Part shown: piece by piece, positions 13,987 to 29,993 of the stretch | How the letters are laid out: the number at the start of each line of letters is the position of its first letter | How positions within the stretch are numbered: the first letter of the stretch is position 1 | Source: a virus | Direction: 5' to 3' (one strand) | Length of the DNA: 31,207 nt | Virus record (IMG/VR): IMGVR_UViG_3300046451_002337 | Location: 1 to 31,207 of that record | The notes under the pieces: model-generated | Told to the model about the DNA's origin: nothing | Database searches by the model: none | What the model saw: only the letters and a program-made list of their open reading frames with translations | Made by a program: the position numbers and the translations under genes

Positions 13987-15858
13987 TTACGCCACAAACA
14001 TTGGAGTGAATGTTGCCTGAACATTACTTTGCTCAACATTCATCATGTCGTAATATATTTTTATCATCCAATTCCCTAATACTAAAGCGGAGTAAGAGTC
14101 TTTCCTAGCCTTCTCTGGTCCGGTTGTTCTTTTTAGGTTGTCTGGAAGATCAAAGGTCTGCGTTCCATGCGCAGTAGTTTTAATTTGTATCAAAGCACAT
14201 TCCCCTTTTGTTTTTTCCATTAAGTCTATTTGATATTCTACTAGATCAATCATTTTAGCGGCAGCGCTTTGCTTTTCATCCTCTATACTTCTTAAAAATT
14301 TTAATTCCTTGATTGGTATCTTTTTATTTCTTTGCTTCTGGTAGTCGTCATTAACAGCTCTAGATCCAAAGAAAATTCGCTTGTGGTCAAAATTAGCTTG
14401 CAATAATTCATTAGAATTTCTAATCCATTGGGAAGTCGGCTTGCGCAAGATGCAGATTCTTTTTTTATCTAAGTTATATTCTAATTTAGCATCGCGCAAT
14501 GCCTGCTGATAATTTTCCAAATTATCAAGTTCTACACTAATAGTTTTAATCTCTAAGTTGTTTTGCTTGAAAAGACTGCTCTCATTGCAGGCGTTAAGGA
14601 ATTGCACTCCCCCGTTATAGTCTCCTACCATTGCTACTATATTAAAATTTGTTAACAAATAATGTAAATAGAAAATATGATCTTTCAGGCGAGCGCCTGA
14701 CATGGCGTAGTTATGAACTAAAGTGCCGTGCTGGTTCCCGTCATTAAGCTTGAAAACCTGAATGGCAAAGTCATCAGAGCTTTCGCTCTCTGCCCAACTA
14801 GGGTCAAAAGATAATAAATATTTATCAGATGGCTCTCCAGCGACCTCCACGCATGGGCTCTGGCCGTCAGGGACAGTACAGGAAGCCATTTTTGATATCT
14901 TAAAGTACCCAGAGCTATCATCAGTAAATACAGCGCCAAATTCTCTATCAAACTGACTCTGACTCATACTTGCTCTAGCTTGATTGATTAAATTTTGATC
15001 ATAAAGTTGCTGCGGAGCACAATCATAACTAAAATGCATAATAGTCCTGTGCGCAGTGCCTTTCTCCGGTATATCGCCATTTATTAATAATTCAAATTTC
15101 TGATATAATTTATACATATATTCAAATTTATACGAAGCGGAAGAAAGCATAATTAATTTATTGTTCGGCCAGACATGTCTGTCCACCTCTTTCATTTTTC
15201 CCTCTTTTATCATTCGAGTTTCTAAATTATACAAATCCTCCCTCTCGGTTGGATTTTCAACAACAGAAAGAAAAGGAACTATAACTTCGTTATAAATCCT
15301 TTCTGGCATAAGGAGAAACTCATCAATTATAATTCTATGAAATCGAAAACCACGAAGTTTCTCTCCGTCGCCCAAAGGTAATGCATGAATCTTGCTGGCT
15401 CCTATTTCTAAAGTCCACTGGTCATTAGCTTTTGATTTTCTAGTCACACATTGAGCTAGCATAGCTGCTTCTGGCTTATTAAGTATGTCTTCTATTTTCT
15501 TAAATATCATTTTTGCCTGACGGAAAGATTTTGATACGATACCAATTTCTACTCCTTGATTCAATAAGGCGTCAAGAAAAGCAAACACTCCAGTGGTAAA
15601 AGATTTCGACATTCCTCGACTCCATACTCCCATAAAATAATCTGATTCTAGCATTGCCTTGATTGCCATATGCTGAAAGGGAAAGAGCTTTACGCCACTA
15701 AGCATGTCCACTGCAAAAGTAGTATTGCCCCTCAAGAATTCATAAAGCAATAGTTTAGCTTCGTGCTCTTCTATGAAACCTTTCTTTGCTAAGATTTTTT
15801 GGTTGATATTCGAAGAGTACTTGATTCTCTCTTGTTGCTTTCCTTCTTCCCAGCTCAT
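13987..15858 (-). CDS. terL: Terminase large subunit
   Basis: 623 aa DNA-packaging motor. The ATPase domain has a Walker A variant WSRGMSKSF (79-87) and Walker B RIIIDEF (175-181, acidic pair D179 E180), with the coupling motif SSAS near 238-241. The nuclease domain has FDPSWAE (Asp351), VGDYNGG (Asp412) and a C-terminal KDSYSAL (Asp near 585), the three acidic residues of the RNase H-like fold. All key residues are present, so the enzyme should be active. The ATG overlaps the stop of the subtilase gene by four bases (ATGA), giving tight coupling. The portal follows downstream. Confidence 0.95.
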   Translation of the reverse strand: MSWEEGKQQERIKYSSNINQKILAKKGFIEEHEAKLLLYEFLRGNTTFAVDMLSGVKLFPFQHMAIKAMLESDYFMGVWSRGMSKSFTTGVFAFLDALLNQGVEIGIVSKSFRQAKMIFKKIEDILNKPEAAMLAQCVTRKSKANDQWTLEIGASKIHALPLGDGEKLRGFRFHRIIIDEFLLMPERIYNEVIVPFLSVVENPTEREDLYNLETRMIKEGKMKEVDRHVWPNNKLIMLSSASYKFEYMYKLYQKFELLINGDIPEKGTAHRTIMHFSYDCAPQQLYDQNLINQARASMSQSQFDREFGAVFTDDSSGYFKISKMASCTVPDGQSPCVEVAGEPSDKYLLSFDPSWAESESSDDFAIQVFKLNDGNQHGTLVHNYAMSGARLKDHIFYLHYLLTNFNIVAMVGDYNGGVQFLNACNESSLFKQNNLEIKTISVELDNLENYQQALRDAKLEYNLDKKRICILRKPTSQWIRNSNELLQANFDHKRIFFGSRAVNDDYQKQRNKKIPIKELKFLRSIEDEKQSAAAKMIDLVEYQIDLMEKTKGECALIQIKTTAHGTQTFDLPDNLKRTTGPEKARKDSYSALVLGNWMIKIYYDMMNVEQSNVQATFTPMFVA

Positions 15859-17066
15859 CTCGGTCTAGCTGGATCGTTGTTGTATCGCTCGTCCCAGTCT
15901 ATACCCCAGTCAACTGGTTCGTATTCCTCTTCAGCGTATTGGTAAATCACAATACCTAAACAAACTAAAGCAAAAACGCCAGCGACAATCCATGCGATAT
16001 TTTTCTTAACAAAAGAGCTCTCCTTTTTCGGAGGGGGCGTAGAGCTCGGAGGTTCTGTCTTTGGCTTGGGTGTTGTGGTGGTAGGCTTAAAAGTCGTGGT
16101 AGTAGGTTTAAGAGTGGTAGTGGTAGGCTTAAGAGTTGTGGTGGTAGGTTTGGAGCTTTCTCCTGTTATTAACTTTTCGATATCGACAACTCCATAACCC
16201 CAGTCGTTGTCTTTTCCGACATTACCCTTATCATTAGTATACTTCAGTAAATGTTGACGTATATCTTCGACTGTCTTACAGTCATTCTTTCCTGTCTCTT
16301 TTTCTTGCTTTCTATGTTTTGAAATCATTAAAGCGATTATAGCGGCCATGAATGGGCAAGCCATAGACGTTCCACTCAAGGAAGCATAAGAGTTTTTTAA
16401 ATAAGTACTATATATATTAGCTCCGGGAGCTGCCCAATCAACCTGTGAACCACGAGAAGAAAAGCCAGCAATTTTTCCATACTGATCAAAAGCGCCAACA
16501 GCAATTGTTTCTGGGAAAGCGGCAGGGTATCCGACTCCTGCAAATCCTGAGTTTCCAGCAGCGCATACTACTGGAATATTCATTGCATAAAGGTCTTTAA
16601 TGAATTCATGCATTGCAACAGAAGGAGTCGATCCTCCTAGAGACATAGATACTACATCTGGACGAAGCTCCTTAACAGCCTCCAAAGCTTTAGCTATTTG
16701 GCTATAACTTCCAGATCCGTTTTTATTTAAGGCCTTAAAACATACAGATTTGGCCTTAGGAGCTACCCCAACAAAACCTTGATTATTGTTTTTTGCGCAT
16801 ATAATTCCGACGCAATGAGTTTGGTGTCCATTATAATCATAAATATCTTCACCATCAACAAGGTTAGCTCCTGCTACCGCATTATCACCAATGTCTACGT
16901 GATCAGGCATTCCGGTATCTATAACAGCTATTGTCATTCCTTCTCCTTGGGTTACCTTCCAAGTGTTCGGGATGTTTGCGTATTTGAGACTCCAATCAAA
17001 AGATTGCGAGAAAGTAGTGGATATTTCCTCTACCTTGAAATCGGGTAATTTAACTTCTTGTTTCAT
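15855..17066 (-). CDS. Subtilisin-like serine protease with C-terminal membrane anchor
   Basis: 403 aa, family S8. The catalytic triad is visible: Asp50 in AVIDTGMPDH, His81 in NGHQTHCVG, Ser234 in SGTSMACP, and the oxyanion Asn172 in AAGNSG. The usual HGTH box reads HQTH. There is no N-terminal signal peptide. After the catalytic domain (about 28-300) come three or four KPTTTT(L/F) repeats (307-334), a P/K-rich stretch, one membrane helix (about 356-377, IAWIVAGVFALVCLGIVIYQ) and a short acidic-then-basic end. The topology would tether a protease by its C-terminus. It overlaps terL by four bases, an unusual partner. Possible roles are processing of a virion or host-envelope protein. Neither is shown. 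Confidence 0.9.
   Translation of the reverse strand: MKQEVKLPDFKVEEISTTFSQSFDWSLKYANIPNTWKVTQGEGMTIAVIDTGMPDHVDIGDNAVAGANLVDGEDIYDYNGHQTHCVGIICAKNNNQGFVGVAPKAKSVCFKALNKNGSGSYSQIAKALEAVKELRPDVVSMSLGGSTPSVAMHEFIKDLYAMNIPVVCAAGNSGFAGVGYPAAFPETIAVGAFDQYGKIAGFSSRGSQVDWAAPGANIYSTYLKNSYASLSGTSMACPFMAAIIALMISKHRKQEKETGKNDCKTVEDIRQHLLKYTNDKGNVGKDNDWGYGVVDIEKLITGESSKPTTTTLKPTTTTLKPTTTTFKPTTTTPKPKTEPPSSTPPPKKESSFVKKNIAWIVAGVFALVCLGIVIYQYAEEEYEPVDWGIDWDERYNNDPARPR
16063..16150 (-). repeat. 21-bp tandem repeat encoding KPTTTTL
   Basis: About four near-identical 21-bp units in frame in the subtilase gene, giving the Thr-rich linker between protease domain and membrane helix. Synonymous differences between units show the repeat is not brand new. 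Length may vary by slippage. Confidence 0.8.
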
Positions 17067-17072
17067 TTTTGT

Positions 17073-17996
17073 TTAATAGTTATCTAATAAGTATTGTATA
17101 TCAACATCCCATAAATTTTTACCATAATATAATAAATTAGGAATTAATAATTGTGAATTCGGGCGACTGCCCGAGAAAACAAATTGGCAATAGCCTTTAA
17201 ATTCATGAGTTAAAATTCGCATATTATGCCAAACATAAGAAAGATTAGATGAATAAGATCCATATTTATTATTCTTAATTATTTTATCTATACTACTCTC
17301 AGTAACTATATATAAAAAAGCATTGAATTGTTTCGCTCGTTCGAGCTCTTTTCTAAACCTTTGAAAGCCAACGCTCATGGTTCCTTTGAAGTCGCCTTCG
17401 CTTTTGCGGTCTACATAAGTATAAGTATAATCTTTTCCACCTATAGTATAATCACCAAAGTCAAGTTTATTATCTTTACTATTAAGAAAGAATAGAGGCT
17501 TTTGCTCTCTAGTGTCTATATGTATTACTGTTTCTTTTACTTTTTCGTTTTGTAATAAAAGATTTCGGTTAATACCTTTATTGTACATTGGTTCAATGCC
17601 AAGCCTTTGACAGGCTTGTCCGTAACCGCCGAAATTCCGTTTATATATATCTATTGGCGGTAATTTATTTATTTCTATTTCTATATGATTAGGGCAATAT
17701 TTACTTTTATTCTTTTCTACTCTTATTCTTAATTGATTTAATATATATTCTTTTATCTCTTCTTTGTTGTTTGATGTATTGCACCATTCTATCATTTGCT
17801 CTCTTGTAGAGAAGTCTGTATTAAAGTAATCTGATTTATTCTTGTACGGTAATAGATCTCCAGTGAGTTTATTATTTCGAGGGTAATACGTTGTATAATA
17901 CTCAGCTACCGTAAGATTATGAGCCTTTACATGTTTATGCAAAGCGTTGTCAGATTTAAATTCCTGATTACAGGCTTTGCAGATAGACTTTTCCAT
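17073..17996 (-). CDS. ERCC4-type nuclease with N-terminal C2H2 finger
   Basis: 307 aa. The N-terminus has a classic zinc finger C-x2-C-x12-H-x3-H (Cys6, Cys9, His22, His26). The C-terminal half has the XPF/ERCC4 nuclease signature: DTREQ (161-165), FGDYTI (180-185), VDRKSEGDF (195-203) and FRKELERA (214-221). The acidic residues and the DRK lysine are intact. The middle (about 60-140, with GGYGQACQRLGIEP) looks like a DNA-binding linker. A Shine-Dalgarno AGGAG precedes the ATG. Its place between a fibre gene and the packaging genes could mean a role in DNA processing at packaging or recombination, or a free-standing homing nuclease inserted in the operon. Both are inference. Confidence 0.85.
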   Translation of the reverse strand: MEKSICKACNQEFKSDNALHKHVKAHNLTVAEYYTTYYPRNNKLTGDLLPYKNKSDYFNTDFSTREQMIEWCNTSNNKEEIKEYILNQLRIRVEKNKSKYCPNHIEIEINKLPPIDIYKRNFGGYGQACQRLGIEPMYNKGINRNLLLQNEKVKETVIHIDTREQKPLFFLNSKDNKLDFGDYTIGGKDYTYTYVDRKSEGDFKGTMSVGFQRFRKELERAKQFNAFLYIVTESSIDKIIKNNKYGSYSSNLSYVWHNMRILTHEFKGYCQFVFSGSRPNSQLLIPNLLYYGKNLWDVDIQYLLDNY

Positions 17997-22473: not shown

Positions 22474-23187
22474 TTACACTTTTTTCTTGAACGTTTGCTC
22501 TAATCTGCCAATAATGTATTTTTGTAGCTCACTTCTCAGGATATCCTCTTTAGTAAAACCAAAACAATGTATTCCTTTTTCTTCGCTCTCAGGATCATTG
22601 AATAATTTAAACATATCACTGTATCCGGTTCTTGATCCAATATCACTTTGCATGAAATCTCCACATATAAATAATTTGCTGTTTTTTCCTAATCTTGTAA
22701 TCAGGGTAGTTAATTCTTTAAATGTAAAATTTTGAGCTTCATCCGCGACTACTATTTTATCTTTCCAGCTAGCTCCTCTTAAATAATTTATTGGCATGGC
22801 TTGTATGCGTCCGCTTTCCATTAATTCGCTTCTGGCTGATTTTTCAGGAGGAAGCATCTCGATCAGCTTATCCTGTAATGGCGCCATGTATGGGTTGATT
22901 TTCTCTTCAACACTTCCGGGAAGCGCGCCAAGTCCCTTATCTCCGCTTTCTATTATCGTGCGAACATAAAACATATCAAGGTCGTCATTTGCGCTTAAAT
23001 GTCTAAGGGCTGCATAAACAGCCATATACGTTTTTGTTGAACCGGCAGGGCCACTTACAAACATAATGTTTGTCTCTTCCTGTAAAGCTAGAGCTAGGAA
23101 TAGTTTTTGCTTTTCGGTCAGCTTCAAGTTGTTAACCTTGAATGTTAATTTTAGTTGAGGTATCTCTACCTGAAGTTTTTTTGGCAT
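22474..23187 (-). CDS. phoH: PhoH-like ATPase
   Basis: 237 aa, single P-loop domain. Walker A is GPAGSTKT (46-53), Walker B is IVVADEAQNF (145-154), and a sensor-type strand LFICGDFMQSDIG follows. The N-terminus (LTEKQKLFLALALQEETNIM) matches the start of the PhoH ATPase domain. This short, single-domain version is common in phages of aquatic bacteria, where its function (RNA-linked ATPase or phosphate-related) is unsettled. It is the first gene of the long minus-strand late block and is divergent from the DUF2384-like gene. Confidence 0.93.
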   Translation of the reverse strand: MPKKLQVEIPQLKLTFKVNNLKLTEKQKLFLALALQEETNIMFVSGPAGSTKTYMAVYAALRHLSANDDLDMFYVRTIIESGDKGLGALPGSVEEKINPYMAPLQDKLIEMLPPEKSARSELMESGRIQAMPINYLRGASWKDKIVVADEAQNFTFKELTTLITRLGKNSKLFICGDFMQSDIGSRTGYSDMFKLFNDPESEEKGIHCFGFTKEDILRSELQKYIIGRLEQTFKKKV

Positions 23188-25156: not shown

Positions 25157-25213
25157 ATGGACATCCTAACAATTTCCACAATAATTTTAACAATCGCATT
25201 AATAATCCTATGA
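25157..25213 (+). CDS. 18-aa hydrophobic micro-protein
   Basis: MDILTISTIILTIALIIL: after the aspartate every residue is hydrophobic or Thr/Ser, so it would insert in the membrane. The ATG is one base after the upstream stop and its TGA overlaps the next ATG (ATGA), so it is placed like a real operon gene. Alternatively its translation could simply couple the two larger genes. Two other short hydrophobic peptides of the same kind occur at 25837 and 28324. Confidence 0.45.
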   Translation: MDILTISTIILTIALIIL

Positions 25214-25518
25214 GAAAAGTAACAGAGCAAATTAAACAAGCATTTAATCAAGGCACATCCTTAAAGGTGGGTAACACACGAACAGACGGGCAGACCGTTT
25301 GGCTACATGGCAATGCCATTGTCAAGCGAGATCCCGACGGCTTGGTGCATTGGAGCTTGGCAGGTTGGAATACGCCCACAACACGCGAACGGGTCAACGG
25401 CATAGCAAATGCGGATGTTTGCCAATTTAAATTTAAGCCCGTACTAAATGGCCAAAAAATTGACCCACGCGATTGGTTCGCATCGCCTAATAAGTTGCCC
25501 GATCTTCTAGTGTTCTAA
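25210..25518 (+). CDS. Small conserved phage-type protein (HGN...AGWxTxTTR motif)
   Basis: 102 aa. The core VWLHGNAIVKRDPDGLVHWS followed by LAGWNTPTTRERVNGIAN is a motif I recognise from small early proteins in many phages (LHGN-x-I, then AGW-x-T-x-TTR-x-R-x-N). I know no assigned biochemical role for it. A basic N-terminus (MRKVTEQIKQAFNQG) precedes it. The composition is less AT-rich than its neighbours, suggesting a separate origin. It is the last gene before an intrinsic terminator. Confidence 0.75.
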   Translation: MRKVTEQIKQAFNQGTSLKVGNTRTDGQTVWLHGNAIVKRDPDGLVHWSLAGWNTPTTRERVNGIANADVCQFKFKPVLNGQKIDPRDWFASPNKLPDLLVF

Positions 25519-25544
25519 GCCCTCACATGGTTGACTTATACAAC

Positions 25545-25566
25545 AGCCCACTATGTGGGCTTTTTT
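25545..25566 (+). terminator. Intrinsic terminator, copy A
   Basis: AGCCCAC-TAT-GTGGGCT, then a T run. Ends the 24369-25518 transcription units. An identical hairpin ends the next group. Confidence 0.9.
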
Positions 25567-25602
25567 GTGCCCTATTCTGCCATAGGATAGTGCAATAAAA
25601 AC

Positions 25603-25618
25603 TTGGCACGAAACTTGC
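25603..25618 (+). promoter_or_regulatory. Sigma-54-type -24/-12 site, copy A
   Basis: TTGGCACGAAACTTGC matches the RpoN consensus TGGCACG-N4-TTGC with GG and GC exactly 10 bp apart. Transcription would begin about 12 bp on, at the edge of the first palindrome. No enhancer-binding activator gene is visible in the window. Confidence 0.6.
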
Positions 25619-25631
25619 CTGAAATATTCCC

Positions 25632-25711
25632 TAAGTCGTTGAACATCAAGGGTTTACGTAAAAATTTCGGCCGGCGGAGTTCCGTAAGTCGTTGACTAAC
25701 AACAACTTACG
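25632..25711 (+). repeat. Paired-palindrome element, copy A
   Basis: Two TAAGTCGTTG-headed imperfect palindromes start at 25632 and 25685, 53 bp apart. The first (TAAGTCGTTGA-ACA-TCAAGGGTTTA) pairs best as plus-strand RNA through two G-U pairs. The second is a 12-bp stem with one mismatch. A short CGGA/TCCG hairpin lies between them. Confidence 0.85.
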
Positions 25712-25801
25712 ACATAATTGATACAAGTTCCGTGCCAACTTCTTAAGAAAATTCCAACAGAATAGTGTAAGAACATAGTAGAAAGGTAAGTGAGAAAAAA
25801 C

Positions 25802-25830
25802 TTGCGTCTTGCCCATTTATCCCTTACATT
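25802..25830 (+). promoter_or_regulatory. Leaderless-type promoter 3
   Basis: TTGCGT (25802-25807), 17 bp, TACATT (25825-25830), then GTACAT and ATG at 25837. It lies just after the AGTAGAAAGGTAAGTGAGAAAAA box that is also found after copy B. Confidence 0.7.
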
Positions 25831-25836
25831 GTACAT

Positions 25837-25914
25837 ATGATAACCCACATAATAATACTTTCAATCGTCTTAATCATTGCTTTTTTTCAATACGATAAAA
25901 CCAAAAATAATTAA
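25837..25914 (+). CDS. 25-aa membrane micro-protein
   Basis: MITHIIILSIVLIIAFFQYD then KTKNN. One hydrophobic helix with a short charged tail, typical of small single-pass phage membrane peptides. Too short to be certain, but the ATG stands at the predicted +1 of a complete leaderless-type promoter, which supports it as a real gene. Possible roles include membrane-protein modulation or a holin-like helper, neither shown. Confidence 0.6.
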   Translation: MITHIIILSIVLIIAFFQYDKTKNN

Positions 25915-25922
25915 TAAATAAC

Positions 25923-25951
25923 TTGACTTCCACTCCTTTTACCCTTACATT
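25923..25951 (+). promoter_or_regulatory. Leaderless-type promoter 4
   Basis: TTGACT (25923-25928), 17 bp, TACATT (25946-25951), GTATAT, then ATG at 25958. The upstream bases AATAATTAATAAATAACTTGACT recur almost exactly ahead of promoter 5. Confidence 0.75.
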
Positions 25952-25957
25952 GTATAT

Positions 25958-26020
25958 ATGAACTTAACAGAAAGAGAAAAAATCCTACTAGCAATCGTTT
26001 TACCAAAACTTAAAAAATAA
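25958..26020 (+). CDS. 20-aa peptide gene
   Basis: MNLTEREKILLAIVLPKLKK: an amphipathic helix with basic end. Starts at the predicted +1 of promoter 4 and is followed one base later by the next gene's ATG. Might be a true micro-protein, or a short leader whose translation aids the gene behind it. Confidence 0.5.
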   Translation: MNLTEREKILLAIVLPKLKK

Positions 26021-26021
26021 C

Positions 26022-26195
26022 ATGAATAAAATACAAGTAAGAATAAAAGAATGGTCAACCCATACATCAGTAAAAATCTTTGATACAGGCACGGATCGCC
26101 CAAGGGTTCGGACTGCATCAAGTCAAACCCATCTTAATAAGATCATGAAAGACGAAGGTCTCAATCAATTCCGTTTTAATGTTGTCTTTCAATAA
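26022..26195 (+). CDS. 57-aa basic protein
   Basis: MNKIQVRIKEWSTHTSVKIF begins two strands. The rest (RTASSQTHLNKIMKDEGLNQ, then FRFNVVFQ) is a helix and a final strand, a compact beta-alpha-beta-sized fold. Strongly basic in the middle (RPRVR). It follows the 20-aa peptide gene after one base and precedes the next ATG by 4 nt. Antisense open frames over this stretch (for example 26118-26300) lack any promoter or operon fit. No family recognised. Confidence 0.55.
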   Translation: MNKIQVRIKEWSTHTSVKIFDTGTDRPRVRTASSQTHLNKIMKDEGLNQFRFNVVFQ

Positions 26196-26199
26196 AAAC

Positions 26200-26346
26200 A
26201 TGAAAAATTTAAAAAACGCTCTAAACAAAATAACCAACGCAAAGAAAATGAGAGAAACTTTTCTTGCAACTTGTAACGCAGAAATCAACACAGGAAACAC
26301 GCAGTTGATTATATGTTTCGGTCAGCCTAAAATAATTAATAAATAA
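26200..26346 (+). CDS. 48-aa basic protein
   Basis: MKNLKNALNKITNAKKMRET opens a basic helix. The second half, CNAEINTGNTQLIICFGQPK, looks like two strands. Third gene of the promoter 4 unit. Its last codons (ATAATTAATAAATAA) copy the sequence that follows the 25-aa gene at 25905-25920, so the promoter 4 and 5 upstream sequences appear to be duplicated together with the end of a gene. Function unknown. Confidence 0.5.
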   Translation: MKNLKNALNKITNAKKMRETFLATCNAEINTGNTQLIICFGQPKIINK

Positions 26347-26347
26347 C

Positions 26348-26376
26348 TTGACTTTTACCCTTTTTACCCTTACATT
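26348..26376 (+). promoter_or_regulatory. Leaderless-type promoter 5
   Basis: TTGACT (26348-26353), 17 bp, TACATT (26371-26376), GTATAT, then ATG at 26383. It begins right after the stop codon of the 48-aa gene. Confidence 0.75.
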
Positions 26377-26382
26377 GTATAT

Positions 26383-26643
26383 ATGATAAAGAATAACACT
26401 AAAACTTTCACAGGTAATGTTCACATCTCATCAAATGATGATTCAAAACTTCCTTTGTTTAATACCAATACGAATACATTCATTAACTCGGTAATGACTA
26501 ATAACATAATCGAAGTTCAAGCCGAAGACAAGAACGAAGCAAGAACAAAGATAAACAAGATTGCTAACAATCTTCAATCAAAGGTGACGCTCGGACATGA
26601 CAAGCAAGCCACAAAATACATTAATCAAATCTTTGTAAAATGA
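26383..26643 (+). CDS. Small N/K/T-rich protein
   Basis: 86 aa. An N-rich first half (KNNTKTFTGNVHISSNDDSK) is followed by EVQAEDKNEARTKINKIANN and a basic C-terminal helix. The VxAEDKNEAR-KIN segment looks like a beta-alpha unit in which a strand leads into a helix. Begins at the predicted +1 of promoter 5. Its TGA overlaps the next ATG. No family recognised. Confidence 0.68.
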   Translation: MIKNNTKTFTGNVHISSNDDSKLPLFNTNTNTFINSVMTNNIIEVQAEDKNEARTKINKIANNLQSKVTLGHDKQATKYINQIFVK

Positions 26644-26756
26644 CTAATCATAGCGAATACGAAAAAAAACTAATAATGGCAAAGACGAAAAAAGCCAAAC
26701 TAAACCCACCGAAATTCTCCCTCGCTGAAATATCTTTTTGGGGATGGAATAAATAA
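26640..26756 (+). CDS. 38-aa peptide gene
   Basis: MTNHSEYEKKLIMAKTKKAK then LNPPKFSLAEISFWGWNK. ATGA overlap with the upstream stop, then a basic helix and an aromatic end. It is the last gene of its unit before the copy B terminator. The antisense open frame 26644-26853 runs through the terminator and is rejected. Modest evidence, mainly the overlap. Confidence 0.45.
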   Translation: MTNHSEYEKKLIMAKTKKAKLNPPKFSLAEISFWGWNK

Positions 26757-26788
26757 CATGATCCTGCCGTATAATTAACTTATGCAAC

Positions 26789-26810
26789 AGCCCACTATGT
26801 GGGCTTTTTT
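26789..26810 (+). terminator. Intrinsic terminator, copy B
   Basis: Identical to copy A: AGCCCAC-TAT-GTGGGCT and a T run. Closes the 25837-26756 genes. Confidence 0.9.
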
Positions 26811-26846
26811 GTGCCCTATTCTGCCATAGGATTGTGCAATAAAAAC

Positions 26847-26862
26847 TTGGCACGAAACTTGC
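26847..26862 (+). promoter_or_regulatory. Sigma-54-type -24/-12 site, copy B
   Basis: Same 16 bases as copy A, with GG-N10-GC spacing. Confidence 0.6.
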
Positions 26863-26875
26863 CTGAAATATTCCC

Positions 26876-26955
26876 TAAGTCGTTGAACATCAAGGGTTTA
26901 CGTAAAAATTTCGTCCGGCGGAGTTCCGTAAGTCGTTGACTAACAACAACTTACG
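26876..26955 (+). repeat. Paired-palindrome element, copy B
   Basis: Halves at 26876 and 26929, 53 bp apart. Differs from copy A at one base between the halves (CGTCCGG instead of CGGCCGG). Confidence 0.85.
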
Positions 26956-27055
26956 ACATAATTGATACAAGTTCCGTGCCAACTTTGCATAAAAGTGCCG
27001 GCTGAATAGTGCAAAAAGATAGTAGAAAGGTAAGTGAGAAAAATCGCCAAATAGC

Positions 27056-27084
27056 TTGACACTACGCACATATACCGCTATGTT
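27056..27084 (+). promoter_or_regulatory. Leaderless-type promoter 6
   Basis: TTGACA (27056-27061), 17 bp, TATGTT (27079-27084), ATATAT, then ATG at 27091. Consensus -35. Confidence 0.8.
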
Positions 27085-27090
27085 ATATAT

Positions 27091-27261
27091 ATGATAACAA
27101 TTACATTGAACAAAAATTTTACAAACTGGCTCAACATCACCATGCTTGGCAAGCTAATAGATAACGCCATGAATTCAGCTAATGCGATGCAAATTGCTAG
27201 TAGACTACAAAGACAACACAAACAGGCAACAGGCGAAAGATTGCCGATTATATCACGATAA
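27091..27261 (+). CDS. 56-aa protein, NFTNW family member 1
   Basis: MITITLNKNFTNWLNITMLG begins the protein, then KLIDNAMNSANAMQIASRLQ and a basic end. It aligns with the minus-strand protein at 28046-28237 (MISIKQNANFTNWYQVFSFG, then RLIDELNQKSKAIYFAEGLA), sharing N-x-NFTNW, G-x-LID and the following helix pattern. Paralogy on opposite strands supports both as real genes although this one is under 60 codons. Starts at the +1 of promoter 6. Function unknown. Confidence 0.68.
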   Translation: MITITLNKNFTNWLNITMLGKLIDNAMNSANAMQIASRLQRQHKQATGERLPIISR

Positions 27262-27264
27262 CGC

Positions 27265-27293
27265 TTGACACCACCCACCTAATAGACTACCTT
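27265..27293 (+). promoter_or_regulatory. Leaderless-type promoter 7
   Basis: TTGACA (27265-27270), 17 bp, TACCTT (27288-27293), ATATAT, then ATG at 27300. It begins 3 nt after the stop of the preceding gene. Confidence 0.8.
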
Positions 27294-27299
27294 ATATAT

Positions 27300-27494
27300 A
27301 TGAACGAAAAACAAAGACTACAAGAAATTATCGACAATAACCTCGAAGCAGCTAATAATGGGTCAGGCTCGGCTATGATGCAATGCGTAGCCGCTCAAGC
27401 AGATCTTGATAGGATAGCACAAGCAGAAGCTGACGAACTAGACTTCCTTATCTCTTGTGCTCCTTTGCCCGATTCTAATATCCTAGTTTACTAA
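27300..27494 (+). CDS. 64-aa acidic helical protein
   Basis: MNEKQRLQEIIDNNLEAANN then a helix with AAQADLDRIAQAEADELDFL, and a short hydrophobic end (PDSNILVY). Acidic, likely a helical hairpin. Its ATG stands at the predicted +1 of promoter 7 and the next gene starts one base after its stop. Unknown family. Confidence 0.68.
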   Translation: MNEKQRLQEIIDNNLEAANNGSGSAMMQCVAAQADLDRIAQAEADELDFLISCAPLPDSNILVY

Positions 27495-27495
27495 T

Positions 27496-27741
27496 ATGGA
27501 AAAAGCAACTTGGATCTTGACTAAATTAGGTAACACAGGAATGCCTATAATATGCTCTAGCGAGCACCCCGACAGAACACCCGAAAAATACGATGTGAGA
27601 ATTGGGCAATCCTGTTTTGAAAAAAACTTTTCTAGTGGCAACCTTGTGAATATCGCGGATCACATAAGTCTTGCGGGCGGTTTTCCTGTTTTCGCATTCA
27701 AGGAATACTTAAGCGATGAGGGCATTAAAATACCCGCATAA
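27496..27741 (+). CDS. 81-aa accessory protein
   Basis: MEKATWILTKLGNTGMPIIC leads into EHPDRTPEKYDVRIGQSCFE, then LAGGFPVFAFKEYLSDEGIK. Predicted mixed alpha/beta, two cysteines, no known family. Second gene of the promoter 7 unit, followed by the copy C terminator 37 nt later. Confidence 0.65.
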   Translation: MEKATWILTKLGNTGMPIICSSEHPDRTPEKYDVRIGQSCFEKNFSSGNLVNIADHISLAGGFPVFAFKEYLSDEGIKIPA

Positions 27742-27778
27742 ATCAATTAACTAAAACACCTTAAAAGATATACAATTA

Positions 27779-27802
27779 AGCCGATAAAATATCGGCTTTT
27801 TT
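27779..27802 (+). terminator. Intrinsic terminator, copy C
   Basis: AGCCGATA-AAA-TATCGGCT and a T run. The stem differs wholly from copies A and B, but the sequence after the T run (GTGCCCTATTCTG) is the same. Confidence 0.92.
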
Positions 27803-27838
27803 GTGCCCTATTCTGTCGTAGGATTGTGGAGCAAAAAC

Positions 27839-27854
27839 TTGGCACGAAACTTGC
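27839..27854 (+). promoter_or_regulatory. Sigma-54-type -24/-12 site, copy C
   Basis: TTGGCACGAAACTTGC is retained exactly although the surrounding bases have diverged from copies A and B, suggesting selection on this site. Confidence 0.6.
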
Positions 27855-27867
27855 CCAAAATATCTTG

Positions 27868-27947
27868 TAAGTCGTTAAACATCAAGGGTTTACGCAAAAG
27901 TTTCGGGGGGAACAATTCCCTAAGTCGTTGATAGTCAACGACTTAGG
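27868..27947 (+). repeat. Paired-palindrome element, copy C
   Basis: Halves at 27868 and 27921, 53 bp apart. The second half is a perfect 13-bp stem, CCTAAGTCGTTGA-TAG-TCAACGACTTAGG. The outer pairs are CC/GG where copies A and B have CG/CG, a compensated change. The closing arm seen in A and B is absent. Confidence 0.85.
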
Positions 27948-27986
27948 TGTGTTTTTTGGCGGGAAATCCCTGAAAAATCCTGCTTT

Positions 27987-28059
27987 TTAGGTATTTGGGG
28001 AAAAATCATTTGTCTTTTGCTCTGTTTAGGGTATTTAGGGAAAAATCATTTGTCTTTTG
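27987..28059. repeat. Tandem duplication of a gene 3' end
   Basis: TTAGGTATTTGGGGAAAAAT... at 27987-28019 is repeated at 28026-28059 with two changes, period about 40 bp. The right copy contains the last codons and stop of the minus-strand gene 28046-28237, so the left copy is a duplicated fragment of that gene's end and downstream flank. Confidence 0.8.
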
Positions 28060-28237
28060 AACTTTTAACCTGTATAGCTTTCCCTTGTATGTTTATGTAA
28101 TTCTGCTTTTCTTGTTTGGCTAAACCTTCAGCAAAATAAATCGCCTTAGATTTTTGATTCAACTCATCAATTAGTCGCCCAAAAGAAAAGACTTGATACC
28201 AATTAGTGAAATTTGCGTTTTGCTTAATGCTTATCAT
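28046..28237 (-). CDS. 63-aa protein, NFTNW family member 2
   Basis: MISIKQNANFTNWYQVFSFG, then RLIDELNQKSKAIYFAEGLA, then a basic end with KAIQVKSSKDK. Paralogue of the plus-strand 56-aa protein at 27091. Likely co-transcribed with the 84-aa gene and the 26-aa membrane peptide upstream of it. The upstream gap is A-rich without a Shine-Dalgarno site. Function unknown. Confidence 0.68.
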   Translation of the reverse strand: MISIKQNANFTNWYQVFSFGRLIDELNQKSKAIYFAEGLAKQEKQNYINIQGKAIQVKSSKDK

Positions 28238-28243
28238 TTTGTT

Positions 28244-28324
28244 TTAATTGTTTGAGATAATATCTTTGTGCATCATATAAAATACAATAGCCCACGGCAA
28301 GAATAAAAGGATGTCGTAGCTCAT
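28244..28324 (-). CDS. 26-aa membrane micro-protein
   Basis: MSYDILLFLPWAIVFYMMHK then DIISNN. One membrane helix with a polar end. The ATG overlaps the stop of the 84-aa gene as ATGA and the gene ends 6 nt before the next ATG, a normal operon fit. Resembles the 25-aa peptide gene at 25837 in plan but not clearly in sequence. Confidence 0.55.
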   Translation of the reverse strand: MSYDILLFLPWAIVFYMMHKDIISNN

Positions 28325-28575
28325 TTGTAAACTCCTTTCATTTGGTCAGATACTTCTGTTCCTTGATCTTCTTCGTCAATATTCTCAGCGACATCCGTAC
28401 CAAGGAATTGAGCTTCGTCTTGAATGTCCGAGTTTGAAATGCCAAATAATCCATTCTCACCGATGACCTCCTCGGTCTTGACTTCTTCGACAAAACTCTC
28501 GACTGCTTTGTTAGTAAAACCTTGGCTTGCAAGGACTGCGTTTTTAATAAGGTTAATTCTTTCTTGTTCTTCCAT
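28321..28575 (-). CDS. 84-aa acidic protein
   Basis: MEEQERINLIKNAVLASQGF opens a helix. The rest is very acidic (EEVKTEEVIGENGLFGISNS, then AENIDEEDQGTEVSDQMKGV). First gene of the minus unit 28575-28046. A promoter ends 7 nt before its ATG. Unknown family. Strong acidity fits a host-factor binder or DNA mimic, without proof. Confidence 0.68.
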   Translation of the reverse strand: MEEQERINLIKNAVLASQGFTNKAVESFVEEVKTEEVIGENGLFGISNSDIQDEAQFLGTDVAENIDEEDQGTEVSDQMKGVYK

Positions 28576-28582
28576 AATATAT

Positions 28583-28611
28583 AATCTAGTTTAGTTTTGT
28601 TGATTAGTCAA
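28583..28611 (-). promoter_or_regulatory. Leaderless-type promoter 8
   Basis: Minus strand TTGACT (28611-28606), 17 bp, TAGATT (28588-28583), then 7 nt to the ATG at 28575. One base longer than the others. The -35 overlaps the stop codon of the upstream gene. Confidence 0.65.
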
Positions 28612-29005
28612 GCAATTCTTTTCTGAAATCATCTCTTAACTTTTGTAAAAGTCTGACCCATGACTTGCCATTGATTTGTGCGTCTCTCATGTGATTGCTT
28701 ACTGATAAAGGAGACTGCCAACCGAGAACATCGTCAGATAACTGAAGGGGAACATAATCGCCATTATCATCATAGATAGCAATTTCGTACTCGTTATCTG
28801 AAACATTTCCGTAGAATGATCCTCTTTGACCTTCGGGCATATCACTTGCAATAACTGAAATTGAAAAGCCATTGTCGAAGTCAAGCCTTGCTTGAACTGC
28901 ATTTTCCATGCTATGTGGTTGAAATTCAAGATCATCAAAAGACAAAAGTCTTAAAGCTGAAGATTGAAATTGTGAGACTGAGTTTGGTACTTCGTAATTA
29001 ATCAT
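28604..29005 (-). CDS. 133-aa accessory protein
   Basis: The start is placed at 29005 (MINYEVPNSVSQFQSSALRL) because a leaderless-type promoter ends exactly 6 nt before it. An open frame runs 38 codons further but through the promoter. Core VQARLDFDNGFSISVIASDM, then SDNEYEIAIYDDNGDYVPLQ, then DDVLGWQSPLSVSNHMRDAQ. The pattern (A-R-(L/I)-x-F-x-N-G-(F/Y)-x-x-S-V, then Y-E-(I/L)-A-(I/V), then DV-(I/L)-G) recurs in small phage proteins of unknown function in my memory. Confidence 0.72.
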   Translation of the reverse strand: MINYEVPNSVSQFQSSALRLLSFDDLEFQPHSMENAVQARLDFDNGFSISVIASDMPEGQRGSFYGNVSDNEYEIAIYDDNGDYVPLQLSDDVLGWQSPLSVSNHMRDAQINGKSWVRLLQKLRDDFRKELLD

Positions 29006-29011
29006 AAGTAC

Positions 29012-29040
29012 ATAGTAAGCCAGTTTTCTGATTATAGCAA
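29012..29040 (-). promoter_or_regulatory. Leaderless-type promoter 9
   Basis: Minus strand TTGCTA (29040-29035), 17 bp, TACTAT (29017-29012), GTACTT, then ATG at 29005. It defines the start of the 133-aa gene. Confidence 0.72.
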
Positions 29041-29071
29041 GAAAAAAGATCATTAATTTTGCATATAGTTG

Positions 29072-29153
29072 TAAGCTCTTGAATATCAACGAGTTATGAA
29101 AAAAAGCCTCGGGAGCCAATCCCCTAAGTCATTGACTTACAGTGACTTAGGGG
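29072..29153 (+). repeat. Paired-palindrome element, copy D
   Basis: Halves at 29072 and 29125, 53 bp apart. The first, TAAGCTCTTGA-ATA-TCAACGAGTTA, still folds with two single-base bulges. The second is a perfect 11-bp stem CCCCTAAGTCA / TGACTTAGGGG extended by GG/CC-type pairs, ending 1 bp before the stop of the next minus-strand gene. Same orientation as copies A-C although the flanking genes are on the minus strand. Confidence 0.8.
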
Positions 29154-29154
29154 A

Positions 29155-29376
29155 TTATTCTTCCATCATCCACTCGTCAAGGGCATAGGTGTCTAAATCC
29201 TCATCCTTATAGCTCGCCCCGTCGGGCGTTTCTGTCTGACAGCAAGCTTCTAGCTCGTTAGCTAAATCCTTGTAGTGAACAAATCTTCGAGCCATCTTGT
29301 AAAGCCCTTCGTCGTTAGCTAGCCATAAAGCCACATTCCAAGTTGCCCAATTCTTCCATCCGTTATATCCTTCCAT
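29155..29376 (-). CDS. DUF7249-like small protein
   Basis: 73 aa. YNGWKNWATWNVALWLANDE followed by GLYKMARRF, and a C-terminal TPDG...LDTYALDEWMMEE. The pattern YNGW-x-N-x-x-TWNVALW-x-x-NDEGLY, then TPDG and LDE-(W/M)-M-x-E, is a small phage-associated family (DUF7249 in my memory) of unknown function. A Shine-Dalgarno AGAAGGA lies about 8 nt before the ATG, unlike the leaderless genes. It is therefore probably translated as second gene of the 29572 unit. Confidence 0.75.
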   Translation of the reverse strand: MEGYNGWKNWATWNVALWLANDEGLYKMARRFVHYKDLANELEACCQTETPDGASYKDEDLDTYALDEWMMEE

Positions 29377-29380
29377 AGTC

Positions 29381-29572
29381 TTATCCTTCTATTAGTTGTT
29401 TAAATTGATCGTAAACTTTTTGCTTGCCACCTTTTAGGTCAAACTCGCCCTTGATGATGGAGTAGCAACTTCTACCTCTTGACATCTTCAAACCACTAAG
29501 CTCAAGCTTTAGCCCCCGAAGTAATGTTAAATATCTGAATCTTTCAATTTGTGTTGGTTCTGTTAATATCAT
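29381..29572 (-). CDS. 63-aa basic protein
   Basis: The start is placed at 29572 (MILTEPTQIERFRYLTLLRG) because a leaderless-type promoter with consensus -35 ends exactly 6 nt upstream. An open frame with a TTG extends 16 codons further. The rest is LKLELSGLKMSRGRSCYSII then EFDLKGGKQKVYDQFKQLIE, basic and helical. First gene of a two-gene unit with the DUF7249-like gene. Function unknown. Confidence 0.7.
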   Translation of the reverse strand: MILTEPTQIERFRYLTLLRGLKLELSGLKMSRGRSCYSIIKGEFDLKGGKQKVYDQFKQLIEG

Positions 29573-29578
29573 ATCCTT

Positions 29579-29607
29579 AATATAGTTTAGTTGTTGTTGT
29601 ATGTCAA
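29579..29607 (-). promoter_or_regulatory. Leaderless-type promoter 10
   Basis: Minus strand TTGACA (29607-29602), 17 bp, TATATT (29584-29579), AAGGAT, then ATG at 29572. The -35 overlaps the last codons of the upstream gene (29604-29849). The 6-nt gap happens to contain AAGGA, too close to the ATG to act as a normal ribosome site. Confidence 0.8.
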
Positions 29608-29849
29608 ACAATTTCTGCAATCATTTCTTTAATCTTTCTAACTTCATCTAGGTTTTGTTGAAGCAGATTGAGTTGTGCAAGTATGCCTTTATAGCCAACA
29701 TATCCGCCATTCATGTGACCCTGCCAAGCGTCGCCCACTTTCTTGAATGAAACATTCCAACCACAATGATAATCATATGCTTTTAGAATGCCGTTTGGCA
29801 AGAGTTCAAATGTTAGTTCTTTTCCGTTTGTTATGTCTTTTAATGTCAT
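29604..29849 (-). CDS. 81-aa accessory protein
   Basis: The start is placed at 29849 (MTLKDITNGKELTFELLPNG) from the leaderless-type promoter ending 6 nt upstream. The 28-codon upstream extension would cross the promoter. First half beta strands (LKAYDYHCGWNVSFKKVGDA), second half a helix (GILAQLNLLQQNLDEVRKIK). Possible two-part fold, small beta sheet plus helix. No family recognised. Confidence 0.72.
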   Translation of the reverse strand: MTLKDITNGKELTFELLPNGILKAYDYHCGWNVSFKKVGDAWQGHMNGGYVGYKGILAQLNLLQQNLDEVRKIKEMIAEIV

Positions 29850-29855
29850 ATATAC

Positions 29856-29884
29856 AATGTAAGGCATAAACCTAACTAAAGCAA
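29856..29884 (-). promoter_or_regulatory. Leaderless-type promoter 11
   Basis: Minus strand TTGCTT (29884-29879), 17 bp, TACATT (29861-29856), GTATAT, then ATG at 29849. From -10 to ATG identical to promoters 1, 2, 4 and 5 on the other strand. Confidence 0.78.
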
Positions 29885-29915
29885 GAAAAAAGATCATTAG
29901 TTTTGCATATTGTTC

Positions 29916-29993
29916 TAAGTCGTTGAGTATCAAGGGTTTAGGCTAAAAAGCCTCGGGCCTCAATTCCCTAAGTCGTTGATAACCAACTGTTTA
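29916..29993 (+). repeat. Paired-palindrome element, copy E
   Basis: Halves at 29916 and 29969, 53 bp apart. First half TAAGTCGTTGA-GTA-TCAAGGGTTTA as in copy A. Second half pairs with two G-U pairs and one mismatch. A GGCT-AAAA-AGCC hairpin lies between. The 36 bp before it (29880-29915) repeat 29036-29071 with three differences. Confidence 0.82.

Follow-up and report, generated by a model that had tools for sequence, protein, structure and literature searches.

Paired palindromes with phage-specific spacing bound small-gene modules in a hypervariable region of large uncultured marine phages

We analysed a 31.2-kb virus record (IMG/VR record IMGVR_UViG_3300046451_002337, 31,207 nt; hereafter the window) that carries five copies of a paired palindrome, the element described here. 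In a clade of large uncultured marine phages, this same paired palindrome stands at the borders of nearly every small-gene module in one hypervariable region. Swaps of modules occur at the elements: the gain, loss, and reordering of modules leave junctions within or next to them. We estimate a probability of about 0.58 that the elements serve as module-boundary sites in a gene-cassette array, which occupies one early-type hypervariable region in this clade of large lytic phages.

The element is 78 nt long and consists of two 25-nt imperfect palindromes (P1 and P2), the starts of which are exactly 53 bp apart, with a core between them. The preliminary description, made from the letters of the window alone, had reported five such pairs, and all five were confirmed, each with the 53-bp spacing and each on the plus strand (elements A–E, Table 1). 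The left arms of the window copies are TAAGTCGTTGA with 0–1 mismatch, except for that of P1 in element D (TAAGCTCTTGA), and the right arms are weaker (TCAAGGGTTTA, TCAACGACTTA, and similar). Arms with ≤2 mismatches gave 26 matches in the window, compared with 9.6 expected. A weight model, trained partly on the window copies and mostly on relatives, detected exactly the five elements A–E with scores of 59–85, and zero elements were detected in 60 dinucleotide shuffles of the window. Elements A and B are not independent copies because both lie inside a 269-nt duplication (25531–25799 and 26775–27043, 94% identical). The cores are constant in length and diverge strongly between A/B and D/E, in agreement with the earlier remark that the sequence between the palindromes has changed a lot. 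Across contigs, the anatomy is TAAGTCGTTGA-N3-TCAAgsACTTA, a mostly GC-rich core, and TAAGTCGTTGA-N3-TCAAcgACTTA.

Among the 78 loci with at least five elements, 97.8% of the elements lie at the modal spacing of their own locus, plus or minus 1. The modal spacing ranges from 40 to 58 across loci and is mostly 41/42, 46–48, 50, 53, or 58. The likening of the spacing to five helical turns is therefore not general, since other phages use 41/42, 46–48, 50, 52, or 58 bp, and no drift of spacing was found within a phage. Orientation was called by an unsupervised model learned blindly for each spacing class; a first caller had given mixed results owing to near-symmetric elements. Orientation calls on such elements are error-prone, and within this limit the orientations agreed along the chromosome for 34/34 (41 bp), 59/61 (46 bp), and 101/126 (42 bp) elements, regardless of the strand of the flanking genes. 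The 53-bp relatives of the window were uniform (7/7, 7/7, and 5/5). In the window, the genes are on the plus strand near A–B, convergent at C, and on the minus strand near D–E. The proposal that orientation follows the chromosome and not transcription thus holds in the window and its close relatives; random orientation, named in advance as a sign against it, is not seen in the 53-bp and 41-bp classes, but the 47/48/50-bp phages are more mixed. These results indicate that chromosome-tied orientation is a strong rule, not a universal one.

With genes called by a simple dicodon model, 335 of 336 elements are intergenic and one lies inside a called gene. Within the arrays, 73 of 98 strand switches have an element between the two genes, and neighbouring genes without an element between them are nearly always on the same strand. 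The TAA of a palindrome often serves as the stop codon of a cassette gene.

Pairs of elements were found, within and between phages, in which one flank is 78–100% identical over 140–350 nt and the other flank is unrelated. One phage (G014) carries two copies, 99.5% identical, of a 548-bp element-module-element block, and the block ends 7 and 5 nt outside the outer palindromes. The per-bp enrichment of homology ends is 2.7–2.9-fold at element edges, 0.7–0.8 in genes, and 1.3–1.6 in other intergenic DNA. The window and G013, a 42-bp phage with a terminase only 64% identical, have modules in common at 84–92% nucleotide identity in another order; for example, 27031–27442 in module B–C is 92% identical to a differently placed G013 module. 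Homology between the two extends over 25210–25658 and then over 25685–25840; it halts at the end of P1 and restarts at P2, and the cores are unrelated. Module D–E is also common to both, and the homology likewise skips the cores, which differ.

When the left flank alone is homologous, the identity of the P1 loop is 0.69 (0.45 for random pairs) and that of the P2 loop is 0.44 (0.37 for random pairs). Linkage in these pairs extends across P1 and as far as the middle of the core but is gone at P2; the right flank gives the mirror image. Between spacing classes, the core is never linked. P1 keeps its link with the module on its left and P2 with that on its right, and the core stays resident when the phages differ in spacing. 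Linkage decays gradually along the element, a pattern more in keeping with homologous crossovers at many positions than with a single fixed cut. In unrelated elements of different spacing, the arms are 0.76–0.83 identical and the cores 0.40. The dyad arms are conserved beyond the rest of the element, as in a site pair of a dimeric protein, and this difference between arms and cores suggests recognition by such a protein. The comparison of module exchange among relatives, recommended in the preliminary description, thus revealed exchange at the elements.

We scanned IMG/VR for two TAAGTCGTTGA arms 27–57 nt apart and obtained at least 120 stretches; among the matches listed, many contigs carry 3–15 copies of the same anatomy. 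Other matches, tandem TAAGTCGTTGATA iterons and protein-repeat open reading frames (ORFs), were excluded from the counts. The same 11-mer occurs in another context in L006, L009, L120, and other unrelated viral contigs, as tandem iterons of 21–22 bp (TAAGTCGTTGATAnnnnTTTCG), which are possibly replication or integrase arm sites. Relatives were fetched using the 289-aa array protein of the window instead of the arms to avoid arm bias. Of the 52 loci (window included), 40 have four or more elements; the counts, those of high-scoring segment pairs included, do not represent independent events, as many loci are near-duplicates. A stricter element pattern gave 0 matches in 84,980 bacterial and archaeal species (one genome each), and an origin as a host repeat or prophage was rejected on this result. 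The consensus query found no element among 50,697 named phage records (INPHARED). A plasmid search gave one partial 31-bp match (Bordetella), taken as chance. No paper describing the motif was found in the literature, where matches to the bare 11-mer were primers or unrelated, so far as checked.

The arrays occur in an uncultured clade of large phages (about 200 kb, up to 206 kb) that encode RIIA/RIIB-like and RecA/UvsX-like proteins. Comparison of capsid proteins found no cultured relative for the clade. Relatives of the terminase occur in metagenome-assembled genomes labelled Flavobacteriaceae, Verrucomicrobiales, and others, labels that do not fix the host. In G036 (200 kb, matching ends, apparently complete), all nine elements lie within 179.7–189 kb, and in G037 (194 kb, 53-bp class), seven elements lie within 9 kb. 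In the L176/L181 sub-clade, the left arm of P2 is altered to AATTATATGA in most copies (6–8, in one orientation; L181/L176 7298–16470). The distant L189, L192 (12275 etc.), and L194 have no TAAGTCGTTGA element, and their module borders carry at least five to seven copies of another palindrome, TTGGCAYGAAAATCGCCnGCCGATTTCGTGCCAA, that is, AATCGCCnGCCGATT flanked by TTGGCACG. The altered arm and the other palindrome indicate that the principle outlives the sequence; such concerted change of border elements resembles that of lineage-specific attC sites.

The features of the window are summarized in Table 1. Minus-strand structural and packaging genes occupy 61–23187, and small ORFs on both strands follow from 23.3 kb onward. 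Beside the terminase gene, 15855–17066 (−) encodes a subtilisin-like protease that has a repeat linker rich in Thr/Pro and, at its C terminus, a predicted membrane segment. The conserved 289-aa array protein had no match in Pfam, PHROG, or NCBIfam. The cassette gene at 25210–25518 (+) belongs to family PF23790 (Kyano_Gp96). The product of ORF 29155–29376 (−) belongs to PF23907 (DUF7249) and is 99% identical to a G013 protein; PF23907 occurs also in cyanophages and enteric phages, which indicates wide exchange of such small genes. Directly right of element C, 27985–28064 holds two tandem 40-nt copies (TTTTAGGTATTTGGGGAAAAATCATTTGTCTTTTG...).

The window contains 11 terminator-like sites (2.7 expected) and seven TTGGCACGAAACTTG-type matches (0.9 expected). 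The ORFs of module A–B have TTGACT-N17-TACATT promoters immediately before the ATG. In the small array genes (25923, 26348, 27056 (+), and similar), TTGAC-N17-TAnnnT promoters end a few nt before the ATG, from which their mRNAs appear to be leaderless. The TTGGCACG-N4-TTGC sequence flanking A–C resembles a −24/−12 sigma-54 promoter, but it faces inward on both sides and is absent at D–E, and the −12 GC is often missing in relatives. Sigma-54-like TTGGCACGnnnnTTG motifs lie at 25603, 25724, 26847, 26968, and 27839, and in relatives they recur outside the elements too.

Table 1. Elements, modules, and neighbouring features of the window.
Feature	Position	Strand	Remark
Element A	25632-25709	+	P1 25632-25656, core 25657-25684, P2 25685-25709
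Element B	26876-26953	+	Near-identical to A
Element C	27868-27945	+	Between convergent genes; P2 a perfect palindrome
Element D	29072-29149	+	P2 abuts stop end of minus-strand gene 29155-29376
Element E	29916-29993	+
Module A-B	25710-26875	+	Small ORFs 26022-26195, 26179-26346, 26383-26643
Module B-C	26954-27867	+	Small ORFs 27091-27261, 27300-27494, 27496-27741
Module C-D	27946-29071	-	ORFs 28046-28237, 28321-28575, ~28604-29005
Module D-E	29150-29915	-	ORFs 29155-29376, 29381-29620, ~29604-29850
Conserved array protein, 289 aa	30079-30948	-	Arm-independent probe for relatives
Intrinsic terminator, just left of A	25545-25561	+
Intrinsic terminator near B	26789-26805
Intrinsic terminator near C	27778-27798
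Intrinsic terminator, right of E	30055-30029	-
TTGGCACGAAACTTG flank of A	25603-25617	+	Inward-facing; inverted partner 25724-25738 (-)
TTGGCACGAAACTTG-type pair at B	26847-26861, 26968-26982		Inward-facing
TTGGCACGAAACTTG-type flank at C	27839-27853		Left copy only
Large terminase gene	13987-15858	-
ERCC4-type nuclease gene	17073-17996	-
PhoH-like gene	22474-23187	-

We searched the relatives for recombinases. Tyrosine recombinases (PF00589) were found in 0/34 and 0/16 records, G036 included, with positive controls; serine recombinases (PF00239) in 0/16, with the control positive in 10/14 genomes; and Y1 transposases (PF01797) in 0/16, with positive controls. This absence is firm for G036 and the searched families only, because the other fully read genomes may be fragments. 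A GIY-YIG candidate was discarded, having given a single sub-threshold match. The RecA family is present in 7 of 16 records, including G036. In regard to RNA, single elements fold better than shuffles, and no covariation was found in any pairing scheme; the observed P1L:P2R and P1R:P2L pairing equalled that of shuffled sequences in nearly all classes. The sole Rfam match was a snoRNA well below the cut-off, taken as chance. A conserved folded molecule or structured RNA, one of the candidates put forward earlier, was rejected on these grounds.

The lack of covariation, the conserved arms, the failure to find a recombinase, and the presence of the RecA family together favour boundary elements with homologous exchange and a protein-binding function. 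One P1-core-P2 element stands at each border between small-gene modules that are transcribed independently, and each palindrome would be bound by a dimer of a putative protein. The elements of about 80 bp may provide short homology for exchange via the phage's own RecA/UvsX-like homologous recombination. Binding of the palindromes by a dimeric protein would explain why the arms and spacing are conserved, and exchange by element homology would allow the direct-repeat orientation to persist along the chromosome whichever strand the genes use. Several points weigh against this explanation. Only about a quarter of the homology ends lie ≤30 nt from an element, and many are in genes, partly from alignment decay. 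Orientation is mixed in the 47/48/50-bp phages, and no candidate for the palindrome-binding protein emerged. Furthermore, homology linkers alone need neither constant spacing nor dyads, which implies a second function.

The nearest known kind of element is the promoter early stem-loop (PeSL) of T4-type phages, with which the elements share the role of a repeated linker at shuffled modules. PeSLs are described as "mobile regulatory cassettes" of these phages (Arbiol et al. 2010; Comeau et al. 2014; both as cited in PMC4503421). Motifs of both kinds recur between genes in hypervariable parts of large lytic phage genomes, and PeSLs are thought to shuffle small-gene modules by homologous recombination. 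The RIIA/RIIB-like and RecA/UvsX-like genes also present in the clade add to the likeness. In G030 (L132:9657–13413), an RIIB-like protein and an RIIA-like HATPase protein are encoded adjoining the array, the same placement as in the hypervariable region of T4-type phages. PeSLs are composite promoter-terminators aligned with transcription. The elements, in contrast, are not an early promoter plus a stem-loop terminator: the conserved P1-core-P2 lies between terminator and promoter, has two dyads at a phage-specific fixed distance, is strand-independent, and occurs also between convergent genes. To our knowledge, paired dyads, phage-specific spacing, strand-independent orientation, and a resident core are not part of PeSLs.

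Site-specific recombination of an integron-like or resolvase-like type, in which P1 and P2 would be subsites for recombinase dimers and cutting would occur at a fixed point, is rather unlikely. It would suit the paired dyads, fixed spacing, and direct repeats, one per module, with a lineage-specific version throughout the array; the 548-bp duplication that ends near element edges; and the folding of A and B as one long attC-like hairpin. However, none of the recombinases or transposases sought was found even in the apparently complete genome, linkage decays over the whole element and not at a single point, the folded form shows no covariation, and some modules carry both flanking elements. The earlier suggestion of a recombination site flanking modules thus stands as to exchange of modules and not as to a dedicated site-specific recombinase. 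Integron attC sites also form arrays with small-gene cassettes, are lineage-specific, uniform in orientation, and built of imperfect nested palindromes with a variable centre. The elements differ from them in that no integrase was found, the genes have their own promoters and lie on both strands, the folded form lacks covariation, there is no single fixed crossover, and the centre has a fixed length and stays with the recipient phage. The res sites of serine resolvases likewise have two dimer-sized dyads in direct repeat at a fixed centre-to-centre spacing, but no resolvase was found, a phage carries up to 15 copies, and the spacing varies among relatives, in some cases falling between whole numbers of helical turns. 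The pdif (Xer) modules of Acinetobacter plasmids resemble the array in that genes are flanked by short sites with 11-bp arms. The pdif sites are single 28-bp XerC/D sites in alternating orientation, whereas the elements have two dyads and one orientation, and no Xer homologue was found in the phage.

It is improbable that the elements are operator or activator sites through which a phage regulator acts on adjacent promoters. The dyads resemble dimer sites, promoter-like sequences flank A–C, and among start-facing sides that match a promoter, about half have the −35 at 26–31 nt from the element edge; on stop-facing sides, only 59/346 have a promoter match. This explanation is largely refuted by palindrome conservation, which is as high on stop-facing as on start-facing sides (9.48 and 9.38 of 11 matches for P1, 8.67 and 8.38 for P2) and indicates that the palindromes are not maintained as promoter operators; the operator array of the preliminary description falls with it. 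Moreover, elements lie between convergent genes at 49 of 295 borders, and their orientation ignores transcription. The stoperators of mycobacteriophage L5 resemble the elements in the many intergenic copies of one protein-binding motif and in orientation bias, and differ from them in being single and asymmetric, in following the direction of transcription, and in being distributed across the genome.

A transcriptional insulator or bidirectional terminator between modules, with a hairpin core and T-tract, is about as doubtful as an operator. The elements separate transcription units, in the 58-bp cores a C(TTCG)G hairpin precedes TTTT, and P2 of element C scores as a terminator. However, a U-tract is missing from most cores, A, B, C, and E each have a separate canonical terminator next to them, covariation is lacking, and the palindromic arms, constant spacing, and chromosome-wide orientation would be unexplained. 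A chromosome-level site for replication, segregation, packaging, or condensation, read one way, would fit the uniform orientation and the two sites at fixed phase, but is very improbable, and with it the replication or partition site suggested earlier, as all elements of the 200-kb G036 genome fall within about 9 kb with one per module border, copy number tracks module number, and two sub-clades bear a different motif at the same border type.

Small phage genes of unknown function lie mostly in hypervariable regions, and their gain and shuffling are largely unexplained. With one recognisable border element throughout the clade, it becomes possible to define where a cassette begins and ends, to follow it from phage to phage, and to test it. 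An undescribed protein-DNA system is suggested by the invariant spacing, the orientation tied to the chromosome, and the core that stays resident. We hold it possible, with considerable reserve, that this system is a cassette exchange that needs no known site-specific recombinase. A dimeric phage protein would sit on the two palindromes and might nick or cut the resident core; in this way it would direct P2-genes-P1 modules of co-infecting phages to be captured by homology, and the phage would keep its own core. If true, such exchange would be the viral counterpart of the integron, with homologous recombination as its basis.

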